From NCBI GenBank assembly GCA_020848455.1, contig JADLAB010000075.1, positions 1-39,054 of the forward strand: a stretch of DNA of 39,054 nt, read 5' to 3'. A program made the translations under genes and the position numbers. Under the pieces are notes generated by a model. The model did no database searches. It was given only the letters and a program-made list of their open reading frames with translations, and was not told the DNA's origin. The stretch's first letter is position 1. Every line of letters starts with the position of its first letter. This document shows positions 469-32,300 of this stretch, one piece after another. The DNA comes from Polyangiaceae bacterium. GTDB lineage: Bacteria; Myxococcota_A; Polyangia; Polyangiales; Polyangiaceae.

Positions 469-1830
469 TCACCGGCAGCGGCCGAGCACCGCGGACCGCG
501 ATTCGTGGCACACGAGGCAGGGGCGGGGATTGCGGCGCAGGGCGCTCGCGCAGCTCGACTCGAAGCCGAGGGGGTGGGGGCTCGTGCCGCCGGCGCCGGG
601 CAGGCCCTTGCTCGCGTGGCACGAGGCGCAGTCGCGCTCCGTGTGGCACGAGACGCACGCGTTGAGGTTGCGCATCGCCTCGAAGGAGTGATGGCGCGCA
701 CCGCGGGTCGCACGGCTCCACTCCGCCTCCGGCGGATGGAAGCGCCGCCCGGCGCCACGGTTCGCGGCCGGGGCGTCCCGCGCGACGCCCACCCTGCGGT
801 GGCAGTCGCCGCAGAACGACTGGAGCTGGTGACAGCTCACGCAGCGCGGGCTGTCCTGGCGCGCCGCCTGGGCGTGCATCGAGAGCCAGTCGTTCGGGTG
901 CACCTGGCGAGGCCGCACCTTGCCGTCATGGCAGTCCGTGCAGAACGGGCTCGCGTGACAGCTGCCGCACATCGCGCTGTTCGCGGCGGCCACGGGCTGG
1001 TGTCGCGCGATCCAGTCGGGGCCGTGATCGGCGCCGTGCAGCCAGTGCGGCGGCTCGAGCTTGCCCGTCGGGAAGGCCGTGCGCAGCAGGCCGTTCGGCT
1101 CCGTGAGGTGGCACACCGTGCAGTCGCCGCGCGCGTCGCCGGCCGCGGCGCCGCTGAGGGCGTGGCAGGTGAAGCAGCCCGCCATGCGGGGCAGCTGGTC
1201 GCGCGTCGCGAGCTCGAGCTCGTCCACGGCGCCGTGGCACTGCGGGCAGCCGATGTTGCGGGCCAGGTGCTTCTTGTGGGGGAAGCGCAGGTTGGGCTCG
1301 GGCCACACGCTGAGCGCGACGACCCCCTCCACGCCGGCGTCCTCGCCGAGGTGGCAGAAGGCGCACTGGCCGTTCGGATCGGTGCCCGCCTTCACCGCGG
1401 CGAGATTCGAGTGGTTGCAGTCGTGGCAGCCGTCGCAGGTCTCGGGGCTCGGTAGATTGCGATCCTTCGCGGCCTCGCTCTCGTAGACGCCGGCGTGGCA
1501 GGCACGGCAGCTCAGCTTCAGCTGCTTGACGTGCCAGCCGTGATTGAAGCGGATCGCGATCGTCTGGGGCGGGAAGACCTCGTCGCTCGGCACCGGCGTG
1601 GCCGCCACGCCCGGGGGCATCCACGCCGCCGGGACCTCCGCGTCCTCGAACAGGGGGTAGAGCCCGTGCCCGGCCCCGCGCGGGCTCGCGTCCGACGGCG
1701 CCGGCGCCGGCGCGGCGCTCGCAGCGGGCTCGGTCGGCTCGCCCGCGCGCGCGCTCGCCAGCGCGCCGGCGAGCGCCGCCAAGCAGACGGCGAGCGCGAT
1801 CCAGCCGGGGAGCAGGCTCCGACTCCTCAT
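469..1830 (-). CDS. Exported multihaem c-type cytochrome, 13 CxxCH motifs
   Basis: This 453-residue protein begins with a signal peptide (charged MRSRS, hydrophobic core about 10-27), then an Ala/Pro-rich linker to about residue 50. It carries thirteen CxxCH haem c sites, with first Cys at about 108, 132, 156, 195, 219, 237, 288, 297, 330, 340, 392, 401 and 438. Many extra His residues could serve as distal ligands. It is predicted to be a periplasmic electron-transfer protein. Its ATG overlaps the TGA of the upstream beta-barrel gene (ATGA, four bases), which implies translational coupling. A secreted multihaem cytochrome paired with an outer-membrane barrel is the arrangement of porin-cytochrome conduits such as MtrAB, although MtrA has ten haems. 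The haem count and export signal are clear. The conduit role is inferred, and a role in nitrogen or sulfur oxyanion reduction cannot be excluded. Confidence 0.93.
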   Translation of the reverse strand: MRSRSLLPGWIALAVCLAALAGALASARAGEPTEPAASAAPAPAPSDASPRGAGHGLYPLFEDAEVPAAWMPPGVAATPVPSDEVFPPQTIAIRFNHGWHVKQLKLSCRACHAGVYESEAAKDRNLPSPETCDGCHDCNHSNLAAVKAGTDPNGQCAFCHLGEDAGVEGVVALSVWPEPNLRFPHKKHLARNIGCPQCHGAVDELELATRDQLPRMAGCFTCHALSGAAAGDARGDCTVCHLTEPNGLLRTAFPTGKLEPPHWLHGADHGPDWIARHQPVAAANSAMCGSCHASPFCTDCHDGKVRPRQVHPNDWLSMHAQAARQDSPRCVSCHQLQSFCGDCHRRVGVARDAPAANRGAGRRFHPPEAEWSRATRGARHHSFEAMRNLNACVSCHTERDCASCHASKGLPGAGGTSPHPLGFESSCASALRRNPRPCLVCHESRSAVLGRCR

Positions 1831-3392
1831 GGCGACACCTCGGCGCGGAAGCTCAGCGAGCCGAGCAACCGGAACCGCTGGCCCACGAGTCGGTTCAGGT
1901 CGTGCTCCCACTCGACGCGCGCTCGCACGAAATCGGCGGGTGCGAGCTCGGGCGCGACCACGTAGCCGAAGCTCGTCGCGTCGCGGTGCGTGCGCAACGG
2001 ATCGCTCCAGCCGTACACCGACGTGCCTGCGGCCAGCCAGACGTGGTCGGGGACGAGCTCCTGCGCCACGGTCACGTCCGCTCCGCCGCGGCGGCCGCGG
2101 TTCTGCGCCACCTCGCCGAAGCCGGTCTCGACGCCGCCGTGCACGCGCACCTGTCCGGTACCCCACGCGTAGCGCGCGCCCACGTCGGTGACCAGATCGG
2201 GCGCGATGCTCGTGCTGTCGGCGCCGCGATACGCGGCCGGATCGCCCTCCGCCATCCACAGCCGCGCGCCCCCGGACACGGTCACGTCCAGATGCTCCAC
2301 CGGGCGCAACGCCACGCGGGCGAGCGTCGTCGTGATGCCGTCGTGGGTGAACCAGTTCCAGATCGAGTCGAGGTCGAAGGTCGGAACGAAGTAATCGACC
2401 TCGGCTCCGAGCGTGACCGGCTCGCCGACGTGGAACTCGAGGGCGCCGTAGGCCCGGCTCACGACGCCGGTGCCCACGTCGTAGACGAAGCCGCCCTTGG
2501 CGCCGCCGATCTCGGGAAGGAACGCCGAGCCCGCGTAGCCGAGGCGCTCCGAAGACAGGCGCAGTCCCTCGACCTGTGGGTAGCCGCCGCCCTCGTGCGC
2601 CGGGAACTGCCGCGTGAAAGCCGCGCCCGTCGACCAGACGCGGCGGTAGTCGAAGCGCCCGTGGATCCAGTTCGGTCCCGCGCTCTCGACGGCGAAGCCG
2701 ACGGCCGGTGCCGGGGCCGCGTACTGGTACGACGGGAAATCCGCGGCGAGATCGCCTTCGAGATCGCCGTGGGAGCCGCGCCAGACGCCGGGGCGCTCGA
2801 AGCGCGGGCTCGACAGCGGCAGTCCGCCGCGCTGCTCGAGCCCACCGTAGACCTCTGCCTGAACGTAGAACGGCGTCGTGAGCCGCAGCAGCGCGCCGTC
2901 GAAGGACCACCACCCGAGCACGTCGGTCACGTACTGCCGCCCGACGCGGAAGCCGAACCACCCGCCCCCGAGATCGCGCCCCTCGACGTAGCCGTACATG
3001 AGATCGACCGGCGCGTACGCCATACCCGGGACGTAGAGCGTCGGGTCGTCGGCGTAGTCGGTCTCACCCGCTCGATACCCGAAGTCGGTGTCCACCCGCA
3101 TGCGCAGCGCGACCGAGTAGTCGGCCTCGAGCGGCCGGGCCTCGCCCTGCAGGTTGTAGGCCGCGAACCCGAGCACGGCACCGAAGCGCTTGCGCCCGAG
3201 CAGGACGTCGCCCCACGGGCCGGCCACGTCGTACCCCTGTGCAAACACGTCGCCGTCGATCTCGAAGTCCACGCCGAGCGCCATCCGCGGCGTGCTCGCG
3301 AGCGCGAGTGCGGCGACGGTCGCCCACGGCCGCACGCTTCGCCAGGCGCTGCTCCGCGCCGCCGCTCGCTCGCGCGAGGCCTCTCCCAGCAT
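1827..3392 (-). CDS. Outer-membrane beta-barrel, probable porin partner of the multihaem cytochrome
   Basis: This is a 521-residue protein. An Arg-rich start and a hydrophobic stretch at about 22-33 form a signal peptide ending near residue 40. The mature part is dominated by alternating aromatic and polar strands, many Gly/Tyr/Trp turns, and repeated pairs of the 'RVGRQYV' and 'LGAEVDYF' kind, typical of a large transmembrane barrel. The ATG at 3392 has AGGAT about nine bases upstream. An internal GTG at residue 20 would also leave a signal peptide. No haem motif and no CxxC are visible. It is shorter than I recall for MtrB-type porins, and the last residues (AEVSP) lack the usual terminal Phe. 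The four-base overlap with the 13-haem cytochrome gene is the main reason to see it as the sheath of an electron conduit. The barrel call is firm; the pairing is inferred. Confidence 0.82.
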   Translation of the reverse strand: MLGEASRERAAARSSAWRSVRPWATVAALALASTPRMALGVDFEIDGDVFAQGYDVAGPWGDVLLGRKRFGAVLGFAAYNLQGEARPLEADYSVALRMRVDTDFGYRAGETDYADDPTLYVPGMAYAPVDLMYGYVEGRDLGGGWFGFRVGRQYVTDVLGWWSFDGALLRLTTPFYVQAEVYGGLEQRGGLPLSSPRFERPGVWRGSHGDLEGDLAADFPSYQYAAPAPAVGFAVESAGPNWIHGRFDYRRVWSTGAAFTRQFPAHEGGGYPQVEGLRLSSERLGYAGSAFLPEIGGAKGGFVYDVGTGVVSRAYGALEFHVGEPVTLGAEVDYFVPTFDLDSIWNWFTHDGITTTLARVALRPVEHLDVTVSGGARLWMAEGDPAAYRGADSTSIAPDLVTDVGARYAWGTGQVRVHGGVETGFGEVAQNRGRRGGADVTVAQELVPDHVWLAAGTSVYGWSDPLRTHRDATSFGYVVAPELAPADFVRARVEWEHDLNRLVGQRFRLLGSLSFRAEVSP

Positions 3393-3445: not shown

Positions 3446-4279
3446 TCACTCGAAGGGCGAGCGCGGGCTCCGCACGACCTTGCCGTCGGCGCCGAGGCGG
3501 AAATCGCGCGAATCGCCGAGCGCCGCCGCGAAGGCACGGCGCAGGGGCTCCGGCACCACCCAGCCGAGGCGCATGAACCCCTCGGCGATCTTGTTCTTGA
3601 TGCGGACGCTCTCCTCGCGCACGGCGAGCTCGACCAGCGCGGCGAGCGAGGTCGTGCTCGCCTGCTTGAAGATGGTGTCGACCGCGTGGAAGCGCACGGT
3701 CTCGTTGGAGTCGTCGAGGTAGACGCCGACCGCCTCCCGAACCGCGTCGCTCTTCAGCTCCTCGAGGGCGGTGATGAGGTTCACCTTCGGCTCGACGTTG
3801 CGTGTGTACTCGGTGTCGAAGGAGGACAGCATGCCGAGCAGCTCCGCCTCGTAGGCGGCGTCGTCGAGCAGCTCGCGCAGGACCCGCAACGGCGAGTTCA
3901 GACTCTCCGCCCGCTTGCAGAACTCGCGCACGACGCTCACCACGGCCGCGCGCTGCGCCTCGCGCTCTTCGTCGCTCAGGCTCCCGCCGTTCGGACCACC
4001 GCGGCCGACGTCGACGATGCCGTCGAACGCGATGGCCCGCTCCTCCTGGTCCGTGATCGAAGGGTCGATGGTGAACGTGAAGCGCTTCAGCAGCGCGGCG
4101 GCGGCCTCCGGCGTGCCGATGGCGCACAGCTGGCGGATGGCTTGCTCGCGGTCGTACGCCTGCGCGCGCTTGTCCGTCGCGGTCTTGGCCGCGGAGGCGA
4201 GCTTCTTGTCGACGGGCGCTGCATCGTCCGCCCTGGGCGGCGGCGTGCTCTTCTTGCGAAACAGGTCGAAGACACCCAC
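3446..4279 (-). CDS. HEAT-repeat-like protein, 277 aa
   Basis: The protein starts 'MGVFDLFRKK', has a short Pro/Lys-rich linker to about residue 35, and then a series of amphipathic helical pairs. In this part, phrases such as 'REQAIRQLCAIGTPEAAAALLKR' (written here as a pattern: paired helices around Gly-Thr-Pro) and 'SNETVRFHAVDTIF' resemble HEAT or PBS-lyase-type repeats. There is no signal peptide or membrane segment, so it is likely a cytoplasmic scaffold. The start is GTG at 4279, with only a weak GAGA upstream. It ends 53 bases before the outer-membrane barrel gene on the same strand, so it may head the operon that carries the barrel and the cytochrome. The fold class is fairly sure; the binding partner is unknown. 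Confidence 0.72.
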   Translation of the reverse strand: MGVFDLFRKKSTPPPRADDAAPVDKKLASAAKTATDKRAQAYDREQAIRQLCAIGTPEAAAALLKRFTFTIDPSITDQEERAIAFDGIVDVGRGGPNGGSLSDEEREAQRAAVVSVVREFCKRAESLNSPLRVLRELLDDAAYEAELLGMLSSFDTEYTRNVEPKVNLITALEELKSDAVREAVGVYLDDSNETVRFHAVDTIFKQASTTSLAALVELAVREESVRIKNKIAEGFMRLGWVVPEPLRRAFAAALGDSRDFRLGADGKVVRSPRSPFE

Positions 4280-4435: not shown

Positions 4436-5302
4436 TCAATCCGAGATCTCGATCTCCGGCGGCAGCTGCACGCTCACGTAGATGCTGACCATGCTCGTCA
4501 TGTGCCACTTGCGGTCGTTGCTGTCGACCTTGTTGTCCGGGAAGTTGTCTTCCTCGCTCGCCACGTCGAAGCCCGACGTGTTGTAGGACAGCGGCGTCAC
4601 GCGGAACTCGGTCCCGAAGCCGACCATGTCGGCCGGGTAGAAGTTGAGCCCGATCCCGAAGCTCGGCGCCGCGGTGACACGCGAGGCCAGCTCGAAGCTG
4701 GCGGCATCGCTGCACAGGATCTGGCCGTCGCCACCGCACTCCTGCCGCTCCTGGACGCCGACGATGGCGGGACCGAGGAAGAGGTTGATGTCGGTGTCCA
4801 TGAACAGCGCGGAGAACAGCGACACCTTGCCGCGGAAGGGCACGAAGGTGAGCTGCGGCACGAGCATCCACTGGACGCGACCGAGTTGCTTGTCGGCCAG
4901 GCAATCCTCGCCGCGGCAGAGGTTGACGGCCGTGAGGCGGCAGGCGGGGGAGTAGGGATTGTCGGCGCAGCTGCGGCCGTCGATCGCCTTCTCTTGGAGC
5001 TCGTCCGAGAGTCCCGCGTTGTACGAGAACGACGGACCACCGAACAGCCCGAGCCCGAACCAATCCGTGAAGTGGTAGGTGGCGCGCAGCGACGGCATGA
5101 TGTGCCGGCGGTACTCGTCGAGCAGCGTGAAGGACGCGGTCGGAGCGAGCTCGAAGCGCGAGTCGCGGTGCAAGCGCAGGCGGCGATAGGCCGGCGCTCC
5201 GGCGAGCGGTCCGGTGATCTGAACTTCCTGGGCCTGCGCCTCCGTGGAGAGTGCAGCCACTGCAGCGAGCGCAGCCAAGCCTACCGTAACAACTCGTCGC
5301 AT
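4436..5302 (-). CDS. Small outer-membrane beta-barrel, GltA/GltB-like
   Basis: This 288-residue protein has a clear signal peptide cleaved after about residue 24 (...TEAQA|QEV). Barrel strands follow, with phrases such as 'YHFTDWFGLGLFGG', 'LTFVPFRGKVSLF' and 'DINLFLGPAIVG'. It contains several Cys in extracellular-loop-like stretches ('SCADN', 'ACRLTAVNLCRGEDC', 'ECGGDGQILC'), probably disulphide-linked. The ATG at 5302 is chosen over upstream starts because it opens the signal peptide and has GGGGA eight bases before it. It lies 62 bases downstream of a related barrel gene. Myxobacteria carry families of such 'outer membrane beta-barrel domain' proteins, and GltA and GltB are a tandem pair of about this size. 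The Glt assignment rests on the pair and on the glt-like genes elsewhere in the window. Confidence 0.8.
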   Translation of the reverse strand: MRRVVTVGLAALAAVAALSTEAQAQEVQITGPLAGAPAYRRLRLHRDSRFELAPTASFTLLDEYRRHIMPSLRATYHFTDWFGLGLFGGPSFSYNAGLSDELQEKAIDGRSCADNPYSPACRLTAVNLCRGEDCLADKQLGRVQWMLVPQLTFVPFRGKVSLFSALFMDTDINLFLGPAIVGVQERQECGGDGQILCSDAASFELASRVTAAPSFGIGLNFYPADMVGFGTEFRVTPLSYNTSGFDVASEEDNFPDNKVDSNDRKWHMTSMVSIYVSVQLPPEIEISD

Positions 5303-5364
5303 CGTGTGCGTCCCCGTCTTATGGCCGAGAGAGTTCGAGGCGTGTGGGGTAGTCATGCGTGCGC

Positions 5365-6351
5365 TCACTTGGGCTGCGTGTAGTCCCACGTGGGCGGGAG
5401 GAAGAGCGACAGGCCGAGCTGCGCCTGCACGTTGTTCGTGAACTGGCGGCTGTCCTGGAGCCAGGTCGTGTCGTCCTGGGACCGCGGCTTGCCCGCCGCG
5501 TCGAAGCCCGTGGCGATGGTGGGATTCTCGATACGATCGAAGAAGATGTAGTCACGAATCTCGAGGACGACAGCGAGGAACCGCGTGAACGCGATGCGCG
5601 TGCCGATGCCCGCGCCGAACGTGACCGTCGGCTCGAAGCTGAAGACGCGGTTGTCCGGGTCGATGACCGCGCGCGGTCGGGTCGAGATGGCGCCGACCCC
5701 GGCGGTCACGTAGAGGTCGTAGTGGAAGATGAACTCGCTGCCGCCCGCGAACTTGCCGTAGGCAGGCACGTACGTGAAGTTGGCGTTGGCGTTCCACTGG
5801 TACTCGGTGAGCGGCAGGCCGATGCGCGCGGCAGCGCCGGTCTCGAAGTTGAAATCGCTCTCCGAGTTGAGGCCAGCGTACACGTTGGCGTTGGCGCCGA
5901 CCGCGATGGCGTTCGTGATGTAGTAGTTGAACGCCACGCCGGGGCCGGGGTGCGCCACGAACTGGTCGTTCATGGTGAGCCCCCAGTACGGGTTGATCTC
6001 GAAGCGGCCGGCGCGCAGGAAGTAGATCTGCTGCACCGCGTACTTCTCTTCGTCGACCTCGCGCTCGGCCTGGGTCTTCGGGTCGAACTTGGGGCACGCG
6101 TCGGGATCGATCTTGCAGATCTCCGCCAGCCCTCCGCCGTCGTCGGGCTCCGTCGGGCCCTCGGGGCCTTCGCCCTCGCCCTCGCCCTCGCCCCCCTCGC
6201 CCTCGCCTTCACCGGCGGCGGCCTTGGGATCGCCCTTTTCGTCCGACGAAGCGCCCTTGGGATCCCCCTTCGGCTGCGCGTGGGCCGCTAGCGGAGCACA
6301 GATGAGTGCCAATCCCAGGAGCAGCCCTGCCGTCGCGTGGTGTCTCGCCAT
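5365..6351 (-). CDS. Small outer-membrane beta-barrel with acidic Gly-Glu linker, GltA/GltB-like
   Basis: This 328-residue protein has a signal peptide (...LAAHAQ, about residue 25) and then a low-complexity Lys/Gly/Glu region of about 50 residues containing a run of Gly-Glu dipeptides. A two-Cys segment (CKIDPDAC) precedes the barrel of roughly 220 residues. It aligns by eye with its downstream neighbour: 'FTYVPAYGKF' matches 'LTFVPFRGKV', each followed by a D-x-x-x-x-x-G-x-G-strand. The two are therefore diverged tandem paralogues, as GltA and GltB are in M. xanthus. A sigma70-like promoter lies about 90 bases upstream. No strong ribosome site is visible at ATG 6351; the nearest is a GGAG twelve bases before it. 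It is predicted to be an integral outer-membrane protein of a Glt-like complex. The barrel is sure; the Glt role is probable. Confidence 0.8.
   Translation of the reverse strand: MARHHATAGLLLGLALICAPLAAHAQPKGDPKGASSDEKGDPKAAAGEGEGEGGEGEGEGEGPEGPTEPDDGGGLAEICKIDPDACPKFDPKTQAEREVDEEKYAVQQIYFLRAGRFEINPYWGLTMNDQFVAHPGPGVAFNYYITNAIAVGANANVYAGLNSESDFNFETGAAARIGLPLTEYQWNANANFTYVPAYGKFAGGSEFIFHYDLYVTAGVGAISTRPRAVIDPDNRVFSFEPTVTFGAGIGTRIAFTRFLAVVLEIRDYIFFDRIENPTIATGFDAAGKPRSQDDTTWLQDSRQFTNNVQAQLGLSLFLPPTWDYTQPK
6168..6210 (-). repeat. Hexanucleotide microsatellite encoding Gly-Glu repeats
   Basis: On the coding (minus) strand a GGCGAG unit is repeated about seven times with small interruptions. It encodes the Gly-Glu run in the linker of the upstream GltA/B-like barrel. 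Length changes would stay in frame, so linker length could vary without inactivating the protein. Confidence 0.8.
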
Positions 6352-19712: not shown

Positions 19713-21713
19713 ATGGAAGGCAAGCAGAAAGTTGCACTGACGTTCGCGTTCTACCGCGGTGACCAGCTCATCCGTCGCGAGACGGTCGCGCAGGACATCG
19801 TCAAGGTCGGCAAGGATCCCAAGAGCCACCTGCGCGTCGACGACGAGCAGGCGGCGCGGATGCACGCCGTCATCGAGGTGGCGTCCACGACGGACGTGAC
19901 CCTCATCGATCTCGGCAACGAGGCCGGGACGATCGTGAACGGCGCGCGCGTCAACAAGTGCAAGCTGAACGCGGGCGACCAGATCCAGATCGGCTCGACG
20001 ATCATCAACGTCGAGAAGATCGAGAACGCCGCGGCCGTGGCCGCCGCCATGCCGGCCGAGCCGGCGTCGCCGAAGCTCGCGGACAATCCGTTCGCGGCGC
20101 CGAAGGCGAGCCCGATGGCGAACCCGTTCGCGCTGCCGGTCAACCCGTTCGCCGCCGTCGATCCGTTCGCCACGAAGAAGCAGTCGGGTGTGCCCGACGA
20201 CGCGCCCGAGGGCAGCTACGAGTACCAGATCATCAAGAGCGGGCCCGAGGTCGCCGATGCGGAGGTCGACGACCCGCGTCTGAGCGGCGTCGAGGTGCGC
20301 GTGCTCTGGGGCCGCAACCTCCTGCACGCTGCGGTGCTGACGCCGCCGCGGCCGTTCTACGTCGGCGAGGACGAGAGCAAGACCTTCCGCTGCGACTACT
20401 TCGTGCCTGCGGAGAAGCTCGGCGCGACCCGTGCGCCCGTCGTGCTGGTCTCGGGCAACACGGCCTCGGCCGTGATCCTGCCGGGGTCGAAGGGCACGCT
20501 CCAGGTTCCGGGGCAGCCGAAGTTCACGCTTCAAGACGTCATCTCGAACGGCATGGCGCAGCCGTGCGCGCAGCTGCAGGGCGCCTACCAGATCGCGCTG
20601 ACCAACGGGTCGGCGGTGCACATGGAGGTGAACGACCTCGTCTTCGAGGTGACGGCGACGCAGGCTGGCCGCAAGGCGGTCGGCGCCTTCACGCTCGCGG
20701 CGCTCCTCGGTGGCGCCATGCTGTACGTGCTCGGCTCGGGCGTGGCGCACGGCGGCCTCATCGGCGCCATGGCCATGTTCATGCCCGACACCTCGAGCGT
20801 CGGCGACGACACCGTGAGCGAGGATCAGCGCATCCTCATGAAGCAGTACCTCGACTCCGTCGCCGAAAAGGAGATGGAAGAGAAGGAGACCGAGCAGGTC
20901 GCCGAGACCCAGGCCGACAACAAGGAAGGCGGCACGGGCACCCGGGCACGCGGCGAAGAGGGGTCGATGGGCAACCCGAACTCGACCGCCCAGGGCAATC
21001 GCTACGGCGTGCAGGGGCCGCAGGACAACCCCGATCCGCACATCGCCCGTCAGGCGGCGCTGCGCGATGCCGCAGAGTTCGGCATGATCGGCCTCCTGAA
21101 CGCGGGCGCCGGCGGCGACCCCGACGCGCCGACCGCCGAGTGGGGACGCGACGACTCGAGCGGTACCGACCCGCTGTCGGCGCGCGGCAACATGTGGGGT
21201 GATCAGATCGGCGAGTCCTTCGGCGCCGGCGGTCTCGGCCTCACGGGCATCGGCGAAGGTGGCGGCGGGCGCGGCGAGGGCATCGGCCTCGGCTCCGTCG
21301 GCACCCTCGGGCACGGAGCCGGCACCGGCACCGGCCAGGGCTTCGGCTCCGGGCACGGCCGTCTCGGCGGCTCGCACCGCGCCAAGCCGCCGCAGGTCCG
21401 CATGGGCGCCACGAACGTCAGCGGTCGCCTGCCGCCGGAGGTCATCCAGCGCATCGTCCGCCAGAACTTCGGACGCTTCCGCATGTGCTACGAGGCGGCG
21501 CTGCGCAACAACCCGAACCTCCAGGGCCGCGTGTCGGTCAACTTCGTCATCGGTCGCGACGGCCGCGTGTCGAACGTGAGCGCCGGTGGCGACATCCCGG
21601 ATCCCAGCGTGCCGTCGTGCGTGTCGCGGCAGTTCTACGGGCTGTCGTTCCCGCAGCCGGAGGGTGGCATCGTCACGGTCGCCTACCCGATCGTGTTCAC
21701 GCCGGGCGGCTGA
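19713..21713 (+). CDS. gltG: FHA / transmembrane / AgmX-PglI C-terminal domain protein, GltG-like
   Basis: This 666-residue inner-membrane spanner has a cytoplasmic FHA domain at about 27-100 (VGK..SHL, ARMH at 48-51, NG at 76-77). A linker with three NPF and one DPF motifs (125-152) follows, then a second beta-rich region (about 190-315). One membrane helix lies at about 323-345. After it come an acidic coiled segment (365-405), a Gly-rich spacer (505-556) and a C-terminal TonB-like domain (about 572-666: 'IVRQNFGRFRMCYE', 'VNFVIGRDGRVS') of the AgmX/PglI type. GltG/PglI of M. xanthus has this FHA-TM-TonB layout. It is thought to carry motor force through the periplasm to outer-membrane parts. 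ATG 19713 is preferred over the upstream in-frame GTG 19647, although its ribosome site is weak. NfsG is the paralogous alternative. Confidence 0.87.
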   Translation: MEGKQKVALTFAFYRGDQLIRRETVAQDIVKVGKDPKSHLRVDDEQAARMHAVIEVASTTDVTLIDLGNEAGTIVNGARVNKCKLNAGDQIQIGSTIINVEKIENAAAVAAAMPAEPASPKLADNPFAAPKASPMANPFALPVNPFAAVDPFATKKQSGVPDDAPEGSYEYQIIKSGPEVADAEVDDPRLSGVEVRVLWGRNLLHAAVLTPPRPFYVGEDESKTFRCDYFVPAEKLGATRAPVVLVSGNTASAVILPGSKGTLQVPGQPKFTLQDVISNGMAQPCAQLQGAYQIALTNGSAVHMEVNDLVFEVTATQAGRKAVGAFTLAALLGGAMLYVLGSGVAHGGLIGAMAMFMPDTSSVGDDTVSEDQRILMKQYLDSVAEKEMEEKETEQVAETQADNKEGGTGTRARGEEGSMGNPNSTAQGNRYGVQGPQDNPDPHIARQAALRDAAEFGMIGLLNAGAGGDPDAPTAEWGRDDSSGTDPLSARGNMWGDQIGESFGAGGLGLTGIGEGGGGRGEGIGLGSVGTLGHGAGTGTGQGFGSGHGRLGGSHRAKPPQVRMGATNVSGRLPPEVIQRIVRQNFGRFRMCYEAALRNNPNLQGRVSVNFVIGRDGRVSNVSAGGDIPDPSVPSCVSRQFYGLSFPQPEGGIVTVAYPIVFTPGG

Positions 21714-23385: not shown

Positions 23386-26300
23386 ATGGAAGTCTCGCAA
23401 ACGTTGCAGGCGTTGGAACTGGCTCAGGATTGGGCGGCGCTCGCCGAGGCGCTCGAGCGCGCCGCGGGCGACGAGGCAGATGCGACCCTGAAGGCAGCGC
23501 ACTACCTCAAGCTCGGTCGCATCCTGAACGAGAAGCTCTTGCAGGGGCCTCGGGCGCTCAAGGTCTTCCAGAACGCGTGGAAGGCCGAGCCTTCGAACCT
23601 CGAGCCGCTGCACGAGGCGCGCAACGTGTACTGGGAGCTCGGCAAGCTCAACACCGTCGAGACCGTGTTGAAGCGGAGCCTGGAGGCTTCCGAGGGAGCC
23701 GTCCGCGCGGCGCTGCTGCGTGAGCTCGGCGACGTGAGCGCCGACATCGGCAACTACGACGCCGCCGAGCAGGCCTACGCGCAGGCGAGCGAGCTCGGCG
23801 ACCGCGAGGCCGCCGAGCGCCGCGCCGATCTGACGGACGGCGACGCGGCGGCGCGCATCGCGTCGCTCGTGGAGCTGGCCCGCGCGGCCGGGAACGTGGA
23901 CGAGCGCGTGGCCCTGCTCCTGCGCGCGGCGCGGCTGGCGCGGCGCAGCGCCGTGGCCGAGTACGAGCCGCTGCTGCTCGAGGCCTACCGCGCCTCGCCG
24001 GCCAATCACGAGGCGGCGGCCCTGTACGAGGAGCTGCTCGTGTCCGAGGGCAAGCTGCAGGCCGTGCTCGACACGCAGCGCCAGATGCTGGAGCACGCGT
24101 CCGAGACCGAGGGGCCCGCGCTGGCGTTCCGGTTCGGCTCGCGCTGGGCGGTGCGTCACGGCAACGTCGAGCTCGGCGCCAAGCTCCTCGAGCAGGCGCT
24201 GCTCGGCGATCCATCGAACGACGCCGCCTTCACGTTCCTGCGTGAGCTGTGGGGCACGCAAGGCAAGGACTGGGACCGCGTCCTCGGCATCGCCACGCGC
24301 CTCGGCGACAGCGACAAGGCGACGCCCTTCATCTTGTCGCAGGCCGGGCGCCTGTGCTGGCACCAGGTCGGGGACCTCATGCGGGCCAAGCAGTGGTTCC
24401 AGCGCCTGGCCGCGCTCGCGCCCGCGCACCCGGACATCGCTGCCTTCGAGAAGCAGATCGGCGAGAAGCTCGCGGCGGCGGCGCGACCGTCGGCCGCGCC
24501 CGCCGCGCGGATCGAGGCCAAGGCCGTGACGAGCGCGCCGCCCGCGGCGGAGGCCGCCGACGAGGACGTGGCGGTGGATCTGGGCAGCGACGACGTGGAG
24601 GTGGCCGAGGCCGCCCCCGAGCCCCCAGCACCGGTGTCGGCGCCGGTGTCGGCGCCGGTGTCGACGCCCGCCGTGACGAGCACGGCGAAGCCGGCGGAGC
24701 CCGCCGCGGCGGACCCCGACAAGGTCGCCCGCCTCATCGCGGACGCCGAGAAGTACAAGAACGCTCGCAAGAACCACGAGTACGTCAAGACGCTCGTCGA
24801 GCTCGCGCAGACGGTCACGGACGAGAACGAGAAGGTCCTCTATTTCTCCCAGGCGGCCGACGTCTACCAGAAGTTCTCGAACGCCGCCGAGGCGGCGAAG
24901 TGCTTCGAGTCGATCCTCACGATCGACCGCGGCCACCCGGAGGCCATCGAGTTCCTGCGCGGCTACTACGAGAAGCGCCGCGACTGGGAGCACCTCATCG
25001 AGCTGCTCCGCGGCGAGGCGGATCTGCAGCCCGATCAGGACCTCCGGCTCGCGCGCTACATCGAGATCGCACAGCTCGCGACGCAGCAGGTCAAGAAGCC
25101 GCAGATCTGCATCGACCTGTGGCAGATGGTCCGCGAACAGGACCCCCAGAATCCCGACGCGCTCAACGCGCTCGCCGGCTTCTACGAGCGCTCGCGCGAG
25201 TTCGACAAGCTCGCCGAGGTGCTGAGCGCGCAGGCCGAGTCCACCAGCGACACCGCCGAGCGACTCAAGATCCTCGAGAAGCTCGGTCAGATCTACGGCG
25301 AGCGCATCAACAACGACGAGCTCGCGGCCGAGGCCTGGCGCCAGGTGCTGGAGCTCAGCCCCGGGGACCGGCGCGCCCAGGAGAACCTCAAGAAGAAGTA
25401 CCTGGCGCTCAAGCGCTGGGACGACCTCGAGGTGCTCTACGAGGAGAGCGGCAAGTGGGACGAGTTCATCCGCGTCCTCGAGTCGCAAGAGACGCGCGAG
25501 ACCGAGCCCGAGGTGAAGATCGGCCTCTTGCTCAAGTGCGCGGAGCTCTGGGAGCACAAGAAGGAGAAGGTCGACCGGGCCGCGCGCGCCTACGAGAAGA
25601 TTCTGTCCATCGACGAGAATCACCTCGGTGCGGCCGAGGCCCTGATCCCGATCTACCAGGCCGCCGGCAACGCCAAGGGTCTGGCGAGCTCGATCGAGGT
25701 GAAGCTCAAGCACTCGACCGACCCCGAAGAGCAGCTGGGCCTGCTGCGCGAGGTCGCGGCGCTCTACGAGAGCAAGCTGAAGCGCCTGGACCTCGCGCTC
25801 GAGCGCTATCTGGCGGCGCTCGCGATCGCCCCCGGTGACGAGGAGTGCGCGACCGAGGTGGAGCGGGTCGCGCGCGCCACGCACAGCTGGGACGCAGCGG
25901 TGAAGGCCTACCGGGAGGCGCTCGCCAGCCTCGCCGATCCGGCAGCCGAGGGTGCGTTGCGTCTGCGGCTCGGGCGCGTCCTGCTCGACGAGCAGAAAGA
26001 GGTCGACCAGGCCCTCGAGCAGTACCGGGCCGTCTACGAGCTCGACCCCGAGAACGGCGATGCGCTCGGCGCGCTCGAGCGCCTGTACCGCGAGACCAAG
26101 CGCTTCGGTGAGCTGCTCGAGGTCTACGAGAAGCAGCGCGAGCTCGCCACGGAGCCGGAGCAGCTGCGGCGCGTGCTCTACGCCATCGCCGCGCTGCAGG
26201 AGACCGAACAGGGCGACTCCCTGGCGGCGATCAAGACCTACTGGCAGGTGCTCGATGCCGAGGCGGCCGACGCCCAGGCACTCGCGGCCCTCGATCGGCT

Positions 26301-29300
26301 CTACCTGGCGCAACAGGACTGGCAGCCCTACGCCGACGTGCTGCGCCGTCGCCTCGAGACGGACCTCGACGAGCCGACGGTCATCGACCTCAAGTACCGC
26401 CTCGGCCAGACGCTCGAGAAGCACCTCCAGGACCCGGCCGGTGCGCTCGAGAACTACCGCGAGATCCTGCTGCTCGACCCGCTGAACGACGGCGGGCGCG
26501 TGGCGCTCGAAGGCCTGCTCCATCAGCCCGAGCTCGCGCCCGAGATCGCGCGCATCCTGAGCGAGGTCTACGAGGGGCGCGAGGAGTGGGAGAAGCTCAT
26601 CGGCGTGCTCGAGATCCTCGTCACCGCCGAGCAGGAGGTGGAGCCGCGCGTCGCGCTCTTGCGCAAGATCGCGCTCACCGCCGCCGAGCAGCTCAGCGAC
26701 CTCAAGCGCGCCTTCGACGCCGAGAGCCGCGCGCTCGCGGACGCGCCCGACAACCCCCAGGTGCGCAAGGAGCTCGAGATGTTCGCCGAGCAGGCGAACG
26801 ATCACGCGCGCCTCGCGGAGGTGTTCAGCCGCATCGCCGAGGGGCTCGCGGACCAGACCCTGGCGCGCGAGTACTGGATGCGGCTCGCCGCCATCCAGCA
26901 GCAGCTGGGCGAGGTCGACGCCGGGGCCAAGAGCTACGGGCGCGTGCTCGAGATCGACCCGGCGGACGCCGAGGCGCTCGACGCGATGGAGGGCCTCTTC
27001 GGCAAGAACGAGCGCTGGAGCGACCTCATCGGCGTCATCCGCCGGCGCATCGACCTCGAGGGCGACATGCAGGCCCGCGAGGCGCTCTACGCCAGCATGG
27101 CGAGCGTGTACGAGGACAAGCTCCAGAAGCCGGAGGAGGCGATCGCGGCCTACCGCGAGGTGCTCGCGTCCGACGACACGAGCCTCCTGGCGCTGCGTGC
27201 GCTCGACGGCCTCTACAGCCGCCAGAAGATGTTCCAGGAGCTCGGTGAGAACCTGGAGGCGCAGCTGCGCCTCGCCGAGACCGAGGAGGCCGAGATCGGG
27301 CTCATGCTGCGCCTCGCGGCGTTGCAGGAGACGGAGCTCGACCTGCGACCCGCGTCCATCGAGACCTACCGCCAGGTGCTGGAGCGGCAGCCGCAGAACC
27401 CGGCGGCGCTCGCGGCCCTCGAGCGGCTCGGCAAGCTGCCCGAGCACGAGGTCGAGATCGCCGACATCCTCGGCCCGCTCTACCGCGCGAGCTCCGACTA
27501 CCAGAAGCTGCTCGGCGTCTACGAGGTGCAGGTCCGCACGAGCGACGATCCGTCGCGCAAGGTGGAGCTCCTGCACGAGATGGCGGCCTTGCACGAGGAC
27601 GCCGCGGGCGACCTCAACGCCGGCTTCGACACCTTCGCGCGGGCGCTCGAGGTCGACGCCTCGAGCACCGACACGCAGCAGGGGCTCGAGCGCCTGGCGC
27701 GCGCCACCGAGCGCTTCGCCGACCTCGCGCGCGTGTACCGCACGCTCGCGGCCAAGCAGCAGGACACCGAGCTGGCGATCAGCCTCTACACGACCGCGGC
27801 GAGCGTCTACGAGAACGAGCTCCAGTCGGTCGACAGCGCCATCGAGCTCTACCGCACCATTCTCGAGCTCGACAGCCAGCGCCTCGAGGCGGCCGAGGCG
27901 CTCGAGCGCATCTTCCGCGGTGCCGACCGCTTCGAGGAGCTGTCGGCGATCCTGCAGCGCCGCGCCGAGCTGCTCACGGATCTGGACGCTCAGAAGACGG
28001 CCCTGATGCAGGCGGCGCAGATCGAGGAGGAGATCCTCGAGCGCAAGGAGAACGCCGTCGCGGTCTTCCGCAAGGTGCTCGAGATCGACGCCGAGGACGT
28101 GCGCGCCCTCGACGCGCTCATCAAGCTCTACGTCGGGATGGCGCGCTGGGCGGATCTGCTCGGCGCCTACAACCAGAAGGTCGAGCTCGTGCTCGACCCC
28201 GACGAGCGCAAGCGCATCTACTACCAGGCCGGCGCCGTGCACGAGCGCGAGCTCGGCGACGTGCGCAACGCCATCGACACCTACCAGCGCGTCCTCGAGA
28301 TCGACCCCGACGACCTCGAGGCGCTCGGGCGCCTCGACGTCCTCTACCAGCAGGCCGAGGACTGGAGCGAGCTGCTCACCGTGCTGCAGCGCGAGGCGGA
28401 CCTCGCCGGCGACCCGGCCGAGTCGATCAGCTACCAGTACCGAATCGCCGAGCTCTACGACAAGCGCCTCGACGACGTGGCGCGGGCCATCGAGCTCTAC
28501 CGCGACCTGTTGCAGCAGCAGCCCGATCACGCGCCCACGCTCGGCGCGCTCGAGGCGCTCACCGAGACGACGCGCGACCCGGTCGGCGCGGCGCTCGTGC
28601 TCGAGCCCATCTACGACGCGGCGGGTGAGTGGGCGAAGCTCATCCGCGTGCTCGAGGTCCAGGTCAAGCACCAGGAGGACGTCTTCCAGCGGGTCGAGCT
28701 CCTGCACCGCGTGGCCCGGCTCTACGAGGAGATGCTCAACGACCCGCAGCGGGCGTTCGACACCTACGCGCGCGCGGTGCAGTGCGACATCACGAACGAG
28801 CAGTCGCTGGCGCAGTTCGAACGGCTGGCCGGGATGGTGTCGCGCTGGCTCGAGCTCGCGGAGCTCTACGACGCGGAGCTCGGCAAGCTCGCCGAGGATC
28901 CGCAGCGCTTCGCCGAGCTCGGCCTGCGCGTGGCGCGCATCTACGAAGAGCAGATCGAGAACTTCGATCAGGCCATCCAGCGCTTCCAGCGCGTGCTCGA
29001 GATCGAGCCCGAGAACGCGACGGCCATCGCGTCGCTCGACCGCCTGTACGGTCACACCGAGCGCTGGGCCGAGCTCGCGCAGATCCTGCTGCGCGAGGCC
29101 GAGCTCGCGGCCTCGGCCGACGAGGCCCTGCAGTTCCGCTTCCGCCTCGCCCTCGTCCGTCAGACGCGCCTCAACGACATCGACGCGGCCATCCAGGCCT
29201 ACGGCGAGGTGCTCCGCGAGATGCCCGAGCACGCGGACGCGCTCGCGGCCCTCGAGGGGCTGTTCGCGTCCGGCGTGCAGCCCACGCGCGTCGCCGAGAT

Positions 29301-32300
29301 TCTCGAGCCGCACTACGAGAGCCAGAGCAACTTCGAGAGCCTGGGGCGCATCTTCGAGGCGACGCTCGCGTATCGCGAGACGCGCGAGGAGCGCCTGGCG
29401 CACTACTACAAGCTCGCGGAGCTCTACGAGGAGAAGCTCATCGCGCCCGATCTCGCGCTCGGCGCGTTCGTGCGCGGGCTCAAGGACTACCCGACGGACG
29501 AGCGCTGCCTGGAAGAGGTGGAGCGGCTCGGCGGCATGTGCGACGGCGGCTGGGAGCAGGTCGCCAACTGCTACGCCGACATCCTCGGCAGCCAGGAGGA
29601 CAAAGAGCTGCAGCGCATGATCGGCAAGCGCCTGGCGCGCGTGTTCGAGGAGGAGCTCGCCGACGTCACCAAGGCGGAGGAGACCTACCGCTACGTGCTC
29701 GGCGTGATCCCGCTCGAGAACGACTGCCTCGAGAACCTCGACCGCATCTACAGCTCGCTCGAGCAAGCGGCGGAGCTCGCCGGCATCCTCGAGCAGCGCG
29801 TCCAGACGACCGAGGACACCTTCCAGCTGGTGGAGTTCTACACGCGCCTCGGCGACGTGTACGAGCAGCGCCTCGCCCAGTACGACGACGCGATCCGCGC
29901 CTACCGCAAGATCTTCGACCAGCTCGAGCCCGCCAACGAGCAGGCCCAGCAGGTGCTGGAGCGACTCTACACGCACAAGCAGGCGTGGCCGGAGCTGCTC
30001 GGCGTCTACGAGCGCCAGCTCGAGAGCTCGACCGTCAGCGACGCCGAGCGCGGCGACATCGCCGCGAAGATGGGCAGGCTGCTCTCCGATCACCTCGGCG
30101 ACCTGCCGCGCTCGATCGACACGTGGAAGCGCGTGCTCGATCTCCGCGGCGAGGACGGCGAGGCGCTCACGGCCCTCGGCGACCTCTACGAGCGCACCCA
30201 GGCATGGACCGAGCTCACCGAGGTCCTCGAGCGCCACATGGGCCTGCCCATGGAGGACAGCGAGCAGGTCGCCGTGCTGCTGCGGCGCGCGAGGCTGGTC
30301 TCCCAGCAGCTCGGGCGCGACGATGCGGCCCTCGACGACTACAACCGCGTGCTCGACATCGACTACGCGAACGTCGACGCCCTGTACGCCATCGCGGACA
30401 TCTGGCGGCGGCGCCAGAGCACCCAGGACCTGTGCTTCGCGCTCCACCAGACCGTGGACCGCGCGGGGTCGACGCTCCCGGCCGAGAACCTCATCGCGCT
30501 CTACCGCGAGCTCGGCACCATCTACCAGCAGGTGCCGGACCAGGCCGTCGACGCGATCGACGCATGGCGCAAGCTCCTGGCGGTCGACCCGCGCGACTTC
30601 GCAGCCATGGTGGCGCTCGAGCACCTGCTGCGCAACGAGAGTCGCTGGGAGGAGGTCGTCGAGGTCAAGATGATGCGCGCCCGGGCCTACGAGGACTCGG
30701 CGGAGAAGATCCGCGAGTACCTCGAGGTGGCCGACATGTGGGCGCACCAGATCGCCCACGAGGACGGCGCCACGCCGGCGCTCGAGGCCGTGCTCGCGAT
30801 CGACGCGAACCACGACGACGCGTTCAAGCAGCTCGAGAAGCTGCATGCGGCAGCCGGCCGCAGCGAGCAGCTCGTCGAGATGTACATGGCGCGCTTCGAG
30901 ATGTACACGGAGCGCGAGGACGCGGCCCAGATCATCCCGCAGCGCACCCTGCTGCTGCGCAAGGTGGCGCGCGTCTGCGACGAGCAGGTGAGCGATCAGG
31001 AGCAGGCCTACGAGGCCCTGCTCACGGCCTTCGAGCTCGACTGGAGCGACAAGGAGACGACCGCCTACCTCGAGAAGATGGCCCACGCGACCAAGCGCTG
31101 GGCCCAGCTCGTGCAGATCGTGCAGGGCTGGCTCGAGGCCGAGAAGGAGCCGCTGCAGCAGATCACGCTCTGCCTGCACCTGGCCAAGTGGTACGGCGAA
31201 GACCTCGGGCGGCCCGACTACGCGCAGCCCTTCTACCAGAAGGTCATCGCGCTCGACCCGACGAACGTCGCGGCCAAGCTCCAGATGGCGAGCTTCTTGA
31301 AGAAGAACGCGCGCTGGCAGGAGCAGGGGCAGCAGCTCACCCAGGCCCTGGCCGTCGCGGCCCTCGACAGCGACCGCGCGGTCATCCAGTCGGAGCTCGC
31401 CGAGGTCTACGAGCGGCACCTGAACGACCTCGAGGGCGCCATCACGCGCTACAAGCAGGCGCTCGAGGCCATCGGCACGCACCTGCCGGCCCTCGACGCG
31501 CTCGAGCGCATCTACGAGCAGAAGAACCAGATCCCCGAGCTCGTCGACATCCTGGGGCGGAAGTCGAAGGCGCTCAAGGACCCCGAGCAGATCGCCTCGG
31601 TGAAGCTGCGGCAGGCGGGCCTGCTCGAGACGACCATCGGCGACGCCGAGCGCGCCGTCGAGGTGTACCGCGAGGTGCTGGACGTCGACGCCTCGAGCCT
31701 GCTCGCGATGCGCGGCCTCGAGCGCGTGTACGGTGCGATGCAGCGCTGGCGCGAGCTGCTCGAGGTGCTCGACATGCACCTCGACGTGGCCGCGACGGAG
31801 CGCGAGCGCATCGACGTGTTGATGCAGATTGCCCGCCTGCAGGAGGAGCAGTTCCTCAAGCCCGACCTCGCCGCGGTGCGCCTCGAGCAGGTGGTCGAGA
31901 TCGACACCACGCACATCGGCGCCTACGAGGCCCTGGCGCGCTGCTACCAGCGCCTGCGCCAGTGGCGCGACCTCATCGGCTGCTACGAGCGGCACATCAA
32001 CGCCACCGACGACCGCGCCAAGAAGATCGAGCTCCTGTGGCTCATCGCGGACGTGCAGGCGACGCAGCTCCAGGATCAGGAGCGGGCGCTCGACGCCTAC
32101 CTCAACATCGTCGACATCGACCCGAACCACGTCCCCGCACTCGAGGCGCTATCCAAGCTCTACGAGCGGATGGACGACCCGTCCAACGCCATCCACTACA
32201 TGGGGCGCGTCGCCGAGCTGACGGACGTGGGCGCCCAGCGCGTGGAGGCGTTCTACCGCATCGGCAAGCAGCTCGACGAGAAGCTCAACGACCGCGTCCA

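Follow-up and report, generated by a model that had tools for sequence, protein, structure and literature searches.

A barrel gene overlapping a thirteen-haem cytochrome gene in Myxococcota: a probable conduit for electrons across the outer membrane

Myxobacteria, which live in soil, probably possess a hitherto undescribed protein cable that moves electrons through the outer membrane. In the window, the whole stretch of 39,054 nucleotides from a Polyangiaceae bacterium analysed here, the gene of a putative outer-membrane barrel precedes that of a 13-haem c-type cytochrome, both on the minus strand (Table 1). We give a probability of about three in four to the reading that the two proteins form a porin–cytochrome conduit which would carry electrons across the outer membrane, probably outward to extracellular acceptors. 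This is the best reading of the pair because the two genes were never found apart, the predicted haem ligands are wire-like and close homologues adjoin large multihaem cytochromes. Myxococcota are known for predation, fruiting bodies and antibiotics and, to our knowledge, not for metal or extracellular respiration; the surprise lies in the reach of the family through a phylum without such a reputation. If the reading is correct, a large part of Myxococcota would have extracellular electron transfer as an old trait, and cultured species should carry the conduit.

The gene pair and its conservation

A sequence-only reading of the window had described a secreted protein with thirteen CxxCH motifs whose ATG overlaps the stop of a 521-aa gene. 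Open reading frames and translations showed this description to be exact, as was the interval of 469–3392 given for the pair. The source genome is 9.2 Mb long in 742 contigs, and among its relatives with a name a Myxococcales MAG from Lake Baikal comes closest.

Table 1. Features at and around the gene pair, in window positions.
Feature	Position	Strand	Description	Basis
Monohaem lipoprotein gene, first 16 codons, cut by the contig end	3..50	-	LGAC|D lipobox	Continues at G000:C207:78-1277
Gene of conserved cytoplasmic protein of 84 aa	68..322	-	Neighbour, not a component
13-haem c-type cytochrome gene	469..1830	-	453 aa, Sec signal peptide, no lipobox	ORF, CxxCH count
C-terminal seven-haem module	505..1026	-	Residues 269-442	7 CxxCH and 7 conserved likely distal His; kept by itself next to the barrel in six 7-haem homologues
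N-terminal six-haem module, c7 / ActA-QrcA-like	1108..1542	-	Residues 97-241	PDB profile matches; missing from the 7-haem class
ATGA shared by barrel TGA stop and cytochrome ATG start	1827..1830	-	Putative translational coupling	Sequence; same -4 overlap in nearly all relatives
Barrel gene of the putative conduit	1827..3392	-	521 aa, signal peptide about 3273-3392	ORF and translation
HEAT-repeat protein gene	3446..4279	-	Local neighbour	PF13646 1.3e-8

The profile of the barrel matched 87 of the 284 genomes of the phylum. Loci were fetched from these matches for a check of the neighbouring gene (L114–L146), and in 33 of 33 the next gene downstream, on the strand of the barrel gene, proved to encode a homologous multihaem cytochrome, usually of 13 haems and in most cases with the -4 overlap. 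The sequence-only reading had pointed to other genomes as the place to look for the pair, and there it recurs. Among 59 relatives, cytochrome and barrel matches were neighbours on one contig in most genomes of the family. Within the order of the source genome, the cytochrome start preceded the end of the barrel stop by 4 bases in nearly all pairs with a readable barrel and by 1 base in the remaining two, a count biased by taking the candidate start nearest to the expected spot, such a start being present in nearly every genome. Thirteen haems were usual among the pairs of the order, with 12 in 2 of 34. The genes around the pair, in contrast to the pair itself, varied by lineage. Judging from this gene order, the pair is ancient and indivisible. 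The distances among barrels and among cytochromes were also correlated (r 0.88; 0.86 when controlling for the 84-aa protein), which would agree with contact between the two proteins, although shared ancestry confounds the correlation and the 84-aa protein is a short and noisy control.

The label of a barrel had originally been guessed from the sequence. It gained support from the general model PF13505 (OMP_b-brl), which was matched by 6 of 30 members of the barrel family (best 3.5e-4), and none from direct comparison, as the window barrel had no match in Pfam, NCBIfam or PDB. A profile of the 30 members likewise found no match in PDB, none of the 30 barrels matched MtrB_PioB in Pfam or NCBIfam, and no link of these barrels to any named porin was detected in the two collections. 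A crude count from the sequence gave approximately 21–23 amphipathic strands.

Haem sites, modules and homologous classes of the cytochrome

The CxxCH motifs of the cytochrome are located at residues 108, 132, 156, 195, 219, 237, 288, 297, 330, 340, 392, 401 and 438. Shuffling of its residues gave a mean of 0.13 and a maximum of 3 motifs in 5000 shuffles, compared to the 13 observed, and the protein matched PF14522 (Cytochrome_C7) at 3.7e-17. When 65 window-class proteins were aligned, the number of motifs was 13 in 59 proteins, 12 in five and 11 in one. All 13 motif histidines were conserved in at least 80% of the aligned proteins, and so were 11 likely distal histidines, at residues 97, 100, 185, 188, 269, 277, 311, 319, 365, 381 and 419. 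All 13 haem sites in the window protein are thus of the CxxCH type and 11, perhaps 12, of them have a conserved distal histidine; one or two haems could be without one. Multihaem oxidoreductases of the nitrite or hydroxylamine type are marked by an open catalytic haem that has no distal histidine, or by a CxxCK site. Since thirteen conserved haems with 11 likely distal ligands leave little room for a catalytic haem, the cytochrome looks like a bis-His wire and not like an enzyme.

The best solved relatives of the N-terminal module in a PDB profile search were ActA-like (6lod_A, 9.8e-18; 6btm_A, subunit A of Alternative Complex III, 2.4e-13). QrcA and other periplasmic cytochromes gave weak profile matches to the cytochrome, and decahem_SO of the DmsE family was weakly matched by 10 of 33 cytochromes.

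Six homologues with seven motifs were found (L133, L138, L142, L165, L166 and L167), each following a homologous barrel. They correspond exactly to haems 7–13 of the 13-haem protein and have lost none of the seven distal histidines of its C-terminal half. The tree placed these 7-haem forms among the 13-haem forms, which suggests that they arose by loss of the N-terminal module. By this comparison the 13-haem protein is made up of six plus seven haems, and its C-terminal seven-haem module is the minimal barrel-associated unit, because the 7-haem class retains just haems 7–13 beside the barrel; we infer that this module is the part sitting inside the barrel. The natural 7-, 12- and 13-haem versions beside one family of barrels form a series that may show which part of the wire must sit in the barrel.

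A homologous class, here called Q, has cytochromes of 340–372 aa with 12–13 haems, mostly with a lipobox, encoded behind a barrel. Its pairs matched the profiles of the window pair at E 2e-31 to 2e-43 for the cytochrome and, weakly, at 1e-6 to 5e-11 for the barrel. The Q and window classes are separate clades (support 100/99) and have all 11 conserved distal histidines in common. At four Q loci (L155–L158), the neighbours include proteins with 10, 16, 26 and 34 haems, with the 16-haem neighbour matching the GSu CxxxxCH/CxxCH type at 1.8e-58. The GSu_C4xC type of large CX4CH cytochromes, known from Geobacter, is found in metal reducers. The position of the Q class beside large multihaem cytochromes is the strongest argument that the window pair, its homologue, would work at the outer membrane and form a conduit across it. 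The source genome itself carries a second, paralogous pair of the Q class at the end of a contig (G000:C10:29895-32527, equal to L153:7896-10528), in which the barrel has 522 aa, the cytochrome is a 12-haem lipoprotein of 355 aa and the two genes overlap by ATGA.

Known conduits and the probable function of the pair

Two-gene pcc clusters are already known (Shi et al. 2014), and by layout and homology the window pair would be a conduit of this kind, from a distinct family. The sequence-only reading had placed haem number and barrel size outside known conduits. That contrast does not hold for haem number and probably not for barrel size: 18–22 strands are predicted for published Pcc porins, and the Pcc periplasmic cytochromes carry 5–14 haems, two-gene clusters included (PMC4245776). 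The crude count for the window barrel lies near this strand range. In the window, a porin-like gene adjoins the gene of a periplasmic multihaem cytochrome with 13 CxxCH, a number kept in 59 of 65 homologues. An outer-membrane multihaem cytochrome, usual but not universal in Pcc clusters, is absent beside the window-class pair, and two-gene clusters without it have been published (PMC4245776). The conduit inference of the sequence-only reading was strengthened by the inseparable pair, the wire-like ligands and the Q homologues beside large cytochromes, and lost the claimed mismatch with known conduits and the significance given to the 84-aa and HEAT neighbours.

The nearest published parallels are from Anaeromyxobacter, in which Shi et al. 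2014 reported two-gene Pcc clusters with 12-haem cytochromes of 338–344 aa (PMC4245776). Judged by size and haem number only, we infer that the Q class corresponds to their Group IV. In both the Anaeromyxobacter Group IV cluster (Adeh_3392 and its porin, PMC4245776) and the Q class, as in the window pair, the barrel gene stands beside a 12-13-haem cytochrome and a large partner is not required. The Q cytochromes differ from those of the window class in being shorter, mostly lipoproteins and often encoded beside CX4CH cytochromes of 10-34 haems. MtrAB, MtoAB and PioAB likewise combine an outer-membrane barrel with a multihaem periplasmic cytochrome of similar haem density, but they have 10 haems and a 28-strand barrel (PMC4245776), compared to 13 haems and the approximately 21–23 strands counted here. 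Membership in the MtrAB/PioAB group was rejected on sequence, as none of 30 barrels matched MtrB_PioB and the cytochrome had no significant match to MtrA (6r2q_A, E 0.4). The Geobacter systems OmbB-OmaB-OmcB, ExtABCD and ExtEFG combine a barrel of 18-22 strands with a periplasmic cytochrome of 5-15 haems (PMC4245776, PMC6148476); their outer-membrane lipoprotein cytochromes carry 5-12 haems, whereas the partner of the window pair would be a monohaem lipoprotein, and no family-level match to the Geobacter conduits was found for the window pair. The likeness to ActA of Alternative Complex III and to QrcA is limited to the N-terminal six-haem module; unlike ActA, the window protein carries seven further haems in a fused module and is coupled to an outer-membrane barrel. 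No genes for the membrane subunits ActB-F were recognised in the neighbourhood of the pair, and membership in Alternative Complex III was set aside. In the literature searched, neither the window family, its architecture of six plus seven haems nor the monohaem lipoprotein partner was found, and no named myxobacterial conduit of this type other than that of Shi 2014.

Translational coupling of the overlapping genes would yield matched amounts of barrel and wire. The C-terminal seven-haem module, as the 7-haem class suggests, would sit in or against the barrel, and the N-terminal c7/ActA-like module would reach into the periplasm and take electrons from periplasmic or inner-membrane donors. The monohaem lipoprotein, with an Ig-like domain and one class-I-type haem, would be a separate partner carrier that passes electrons on. 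A likely use is the disposal of electrons at low oxygen to extracellular Fe(III), Mn(IV), humics or the redox metabolites of the cell itself. More tentatively, and at somewhat less than even odds, one polypeptide may constitute the whole wire, its seven-haem module threaded through a 20–24-strand barrel and its six-haem ActA-like module docking on the periplasmic side; the pair would then be a core, not an accessory, route of extracellular electron transfer throughout the phylum, in which the monohaem lipoprotein replaces a large surface cytochrome.

Several observations count against a conduit. The pair has no detectable link to MtrA, MtrB/PioB or named porins, and no large surface cytochrome was found encoded near the window-class pair in the neighbourhoods examined, nor a quinol-oxidising inner-membrane partner in the window and the neighbourhoods of its relatives. 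Two cultured carriers, which we take to be aerobes without known extracellular respiration, also speak against it. In the corresponding alternative, the cytochrome would act in the periplasm as a redox protein or reductase, and its soluble substrate would enter through the barrel, a porin. This is consistent with a Sec signal without lipobox and with the weak matches to QrcA and other periplasmic cytochromes. Structure prediction leaves space for it as well, since AlphaFold2 runs with two-row alignments (window and L062 sequences) gave models of barrel and cytochrome with pLDDT of only 29 and 30, both of which were discarded. We nevertheless regard a periplasmic enzyme as improbable, as 13 of 13 CxxCH sites and at least 11 conserved distal histidines leave little room for an open catalytic haem, a partner never apart from its cytochrome at 33 loci would be unusual for a general porin, and the homologous Q class is tied to large multihaem cytochromes.

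If the pair is a conduit, its direction and its acceptor may still differ from those preferred here. Electrons from Fe(II), minerals or another cell could run inward via the barrel and the ActA-like module to the respiratory chain, as in MtoAB/PioAB. Pairs of that type are similarly without an outer-surface decahaem protein (PMC4245776), and there is the likeness of the N-terminal module to ActA of Alternative Complex III; on the other hand, a non-exhaustive annotation of the neighbourhoods brought up no genes recognisable as serving iron oxidation or carbon fixation, and the Q class adjoins large CX4CH cytochromes of the Geobacter GSu_C4xC type, which makes inward transport doubtful. Outward delivery to a specific surface or secreted enzyme or a redox metabolite instead of to minerals, perhaps during predation or the development of fruiting bodies, would suit a pair that occurs widely among the social and mostly aerobic bacteria of this phylum and has no large metal-reductase cytochrome attached to its window class. 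It is rather unlikely, given that no secreted enzyme gene is conserved beside the pair across lineages.

Neighbouring genes

Read in reverse, the first 127 bases of the window agree exactly with the beginning of contig C207, and the gene following the 84-aa gene is thereby known. It encodes a lipoprotein of 399 aa that starts at window position 50 and matches the profile of its family at 5.9e-78. This family combines an Ig-like domain, recognised as Big_5 in 4 of 18 members, with a monohaem domain of planctomycete type, recognised as PSCyt1 in 4 of 18. The haem is of class-I type, bound at CxxCH or CX4CH, and a Met-Pro is invariant. The haem motif switches between CxxCH and CX4CH inside this one orthologous family (L063, L066 and other loci). 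Among the sampled genomes of the order, the lipoprotein was present in all 15 with the pair and in none of the 8 without it, counts that are not independent, as the genomes are related; one family (f5), however, has members both with and without the pair. The 84-aa protein, which had no Pfam or NCBIfam match, occurred in 7 of the 8 genomes without the pair. Because the lipoprotein tracks the pair and the 84-aa protein also occurs without it, the former is likely a partner of the pair in the order of the source genome and the latter a bystander. Other lineages (L123, L126 and L144) have a PSCyt-like protein with CxxCH or CX4CH just upstream of the barrel.

The residue after the lipobox Cys is Asp in 17 of the 23 lipoproteins of the family called by a regular expression, some of the others being evident miscalls, compared to 0 of 15 other lipoproteins. 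In E. coli, Asp at position +2 is the signal of inner-membrane lipoproteins. The inner-membrane lipoproteins of Myxococcus xanthus mostly have Lys at +2 (PMC3222651), and an assignment of location from Asp+2 was for this reason set aside despite its strong conservation. Either the outer membrane or the periplasmic face of the inner membrane may carry the lipoprotein.

The 84-aa and HEAT genes had been put forward as unusual neighbours of a conduit. Neither was retained as a part of it: the former is present in seven genomes of the order without the barrel, and the latter is syntenic with the pair only in the nearest relatives. The 84-aa protein is highly conserved in the order (48-69%). Two adjacent outer-membrane proteins are encoded at 4436-6351, of which the one at 5365-6351 passes the cut-off of TIGR04565 (OMP_myx_plus) and the other matches it weakly; they are syntenic with the pair only in the nearest relatives. 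Another lineage (L129, L131, L139 and L143) has type IV pilin-like genes next to the pair and, after the pair, genes of a conserved lipoprotein that contains cysteine but no haem and of an outer-membrane-like protein. Further along the window, a run of TPR proteins on the plus strand (11737-34749) includes an FHA-domain protein (19713-21713) and a giant TPR protein of 3787 aa (23386-34749), and may belong to a gliding-type or envelope-spanning machine.
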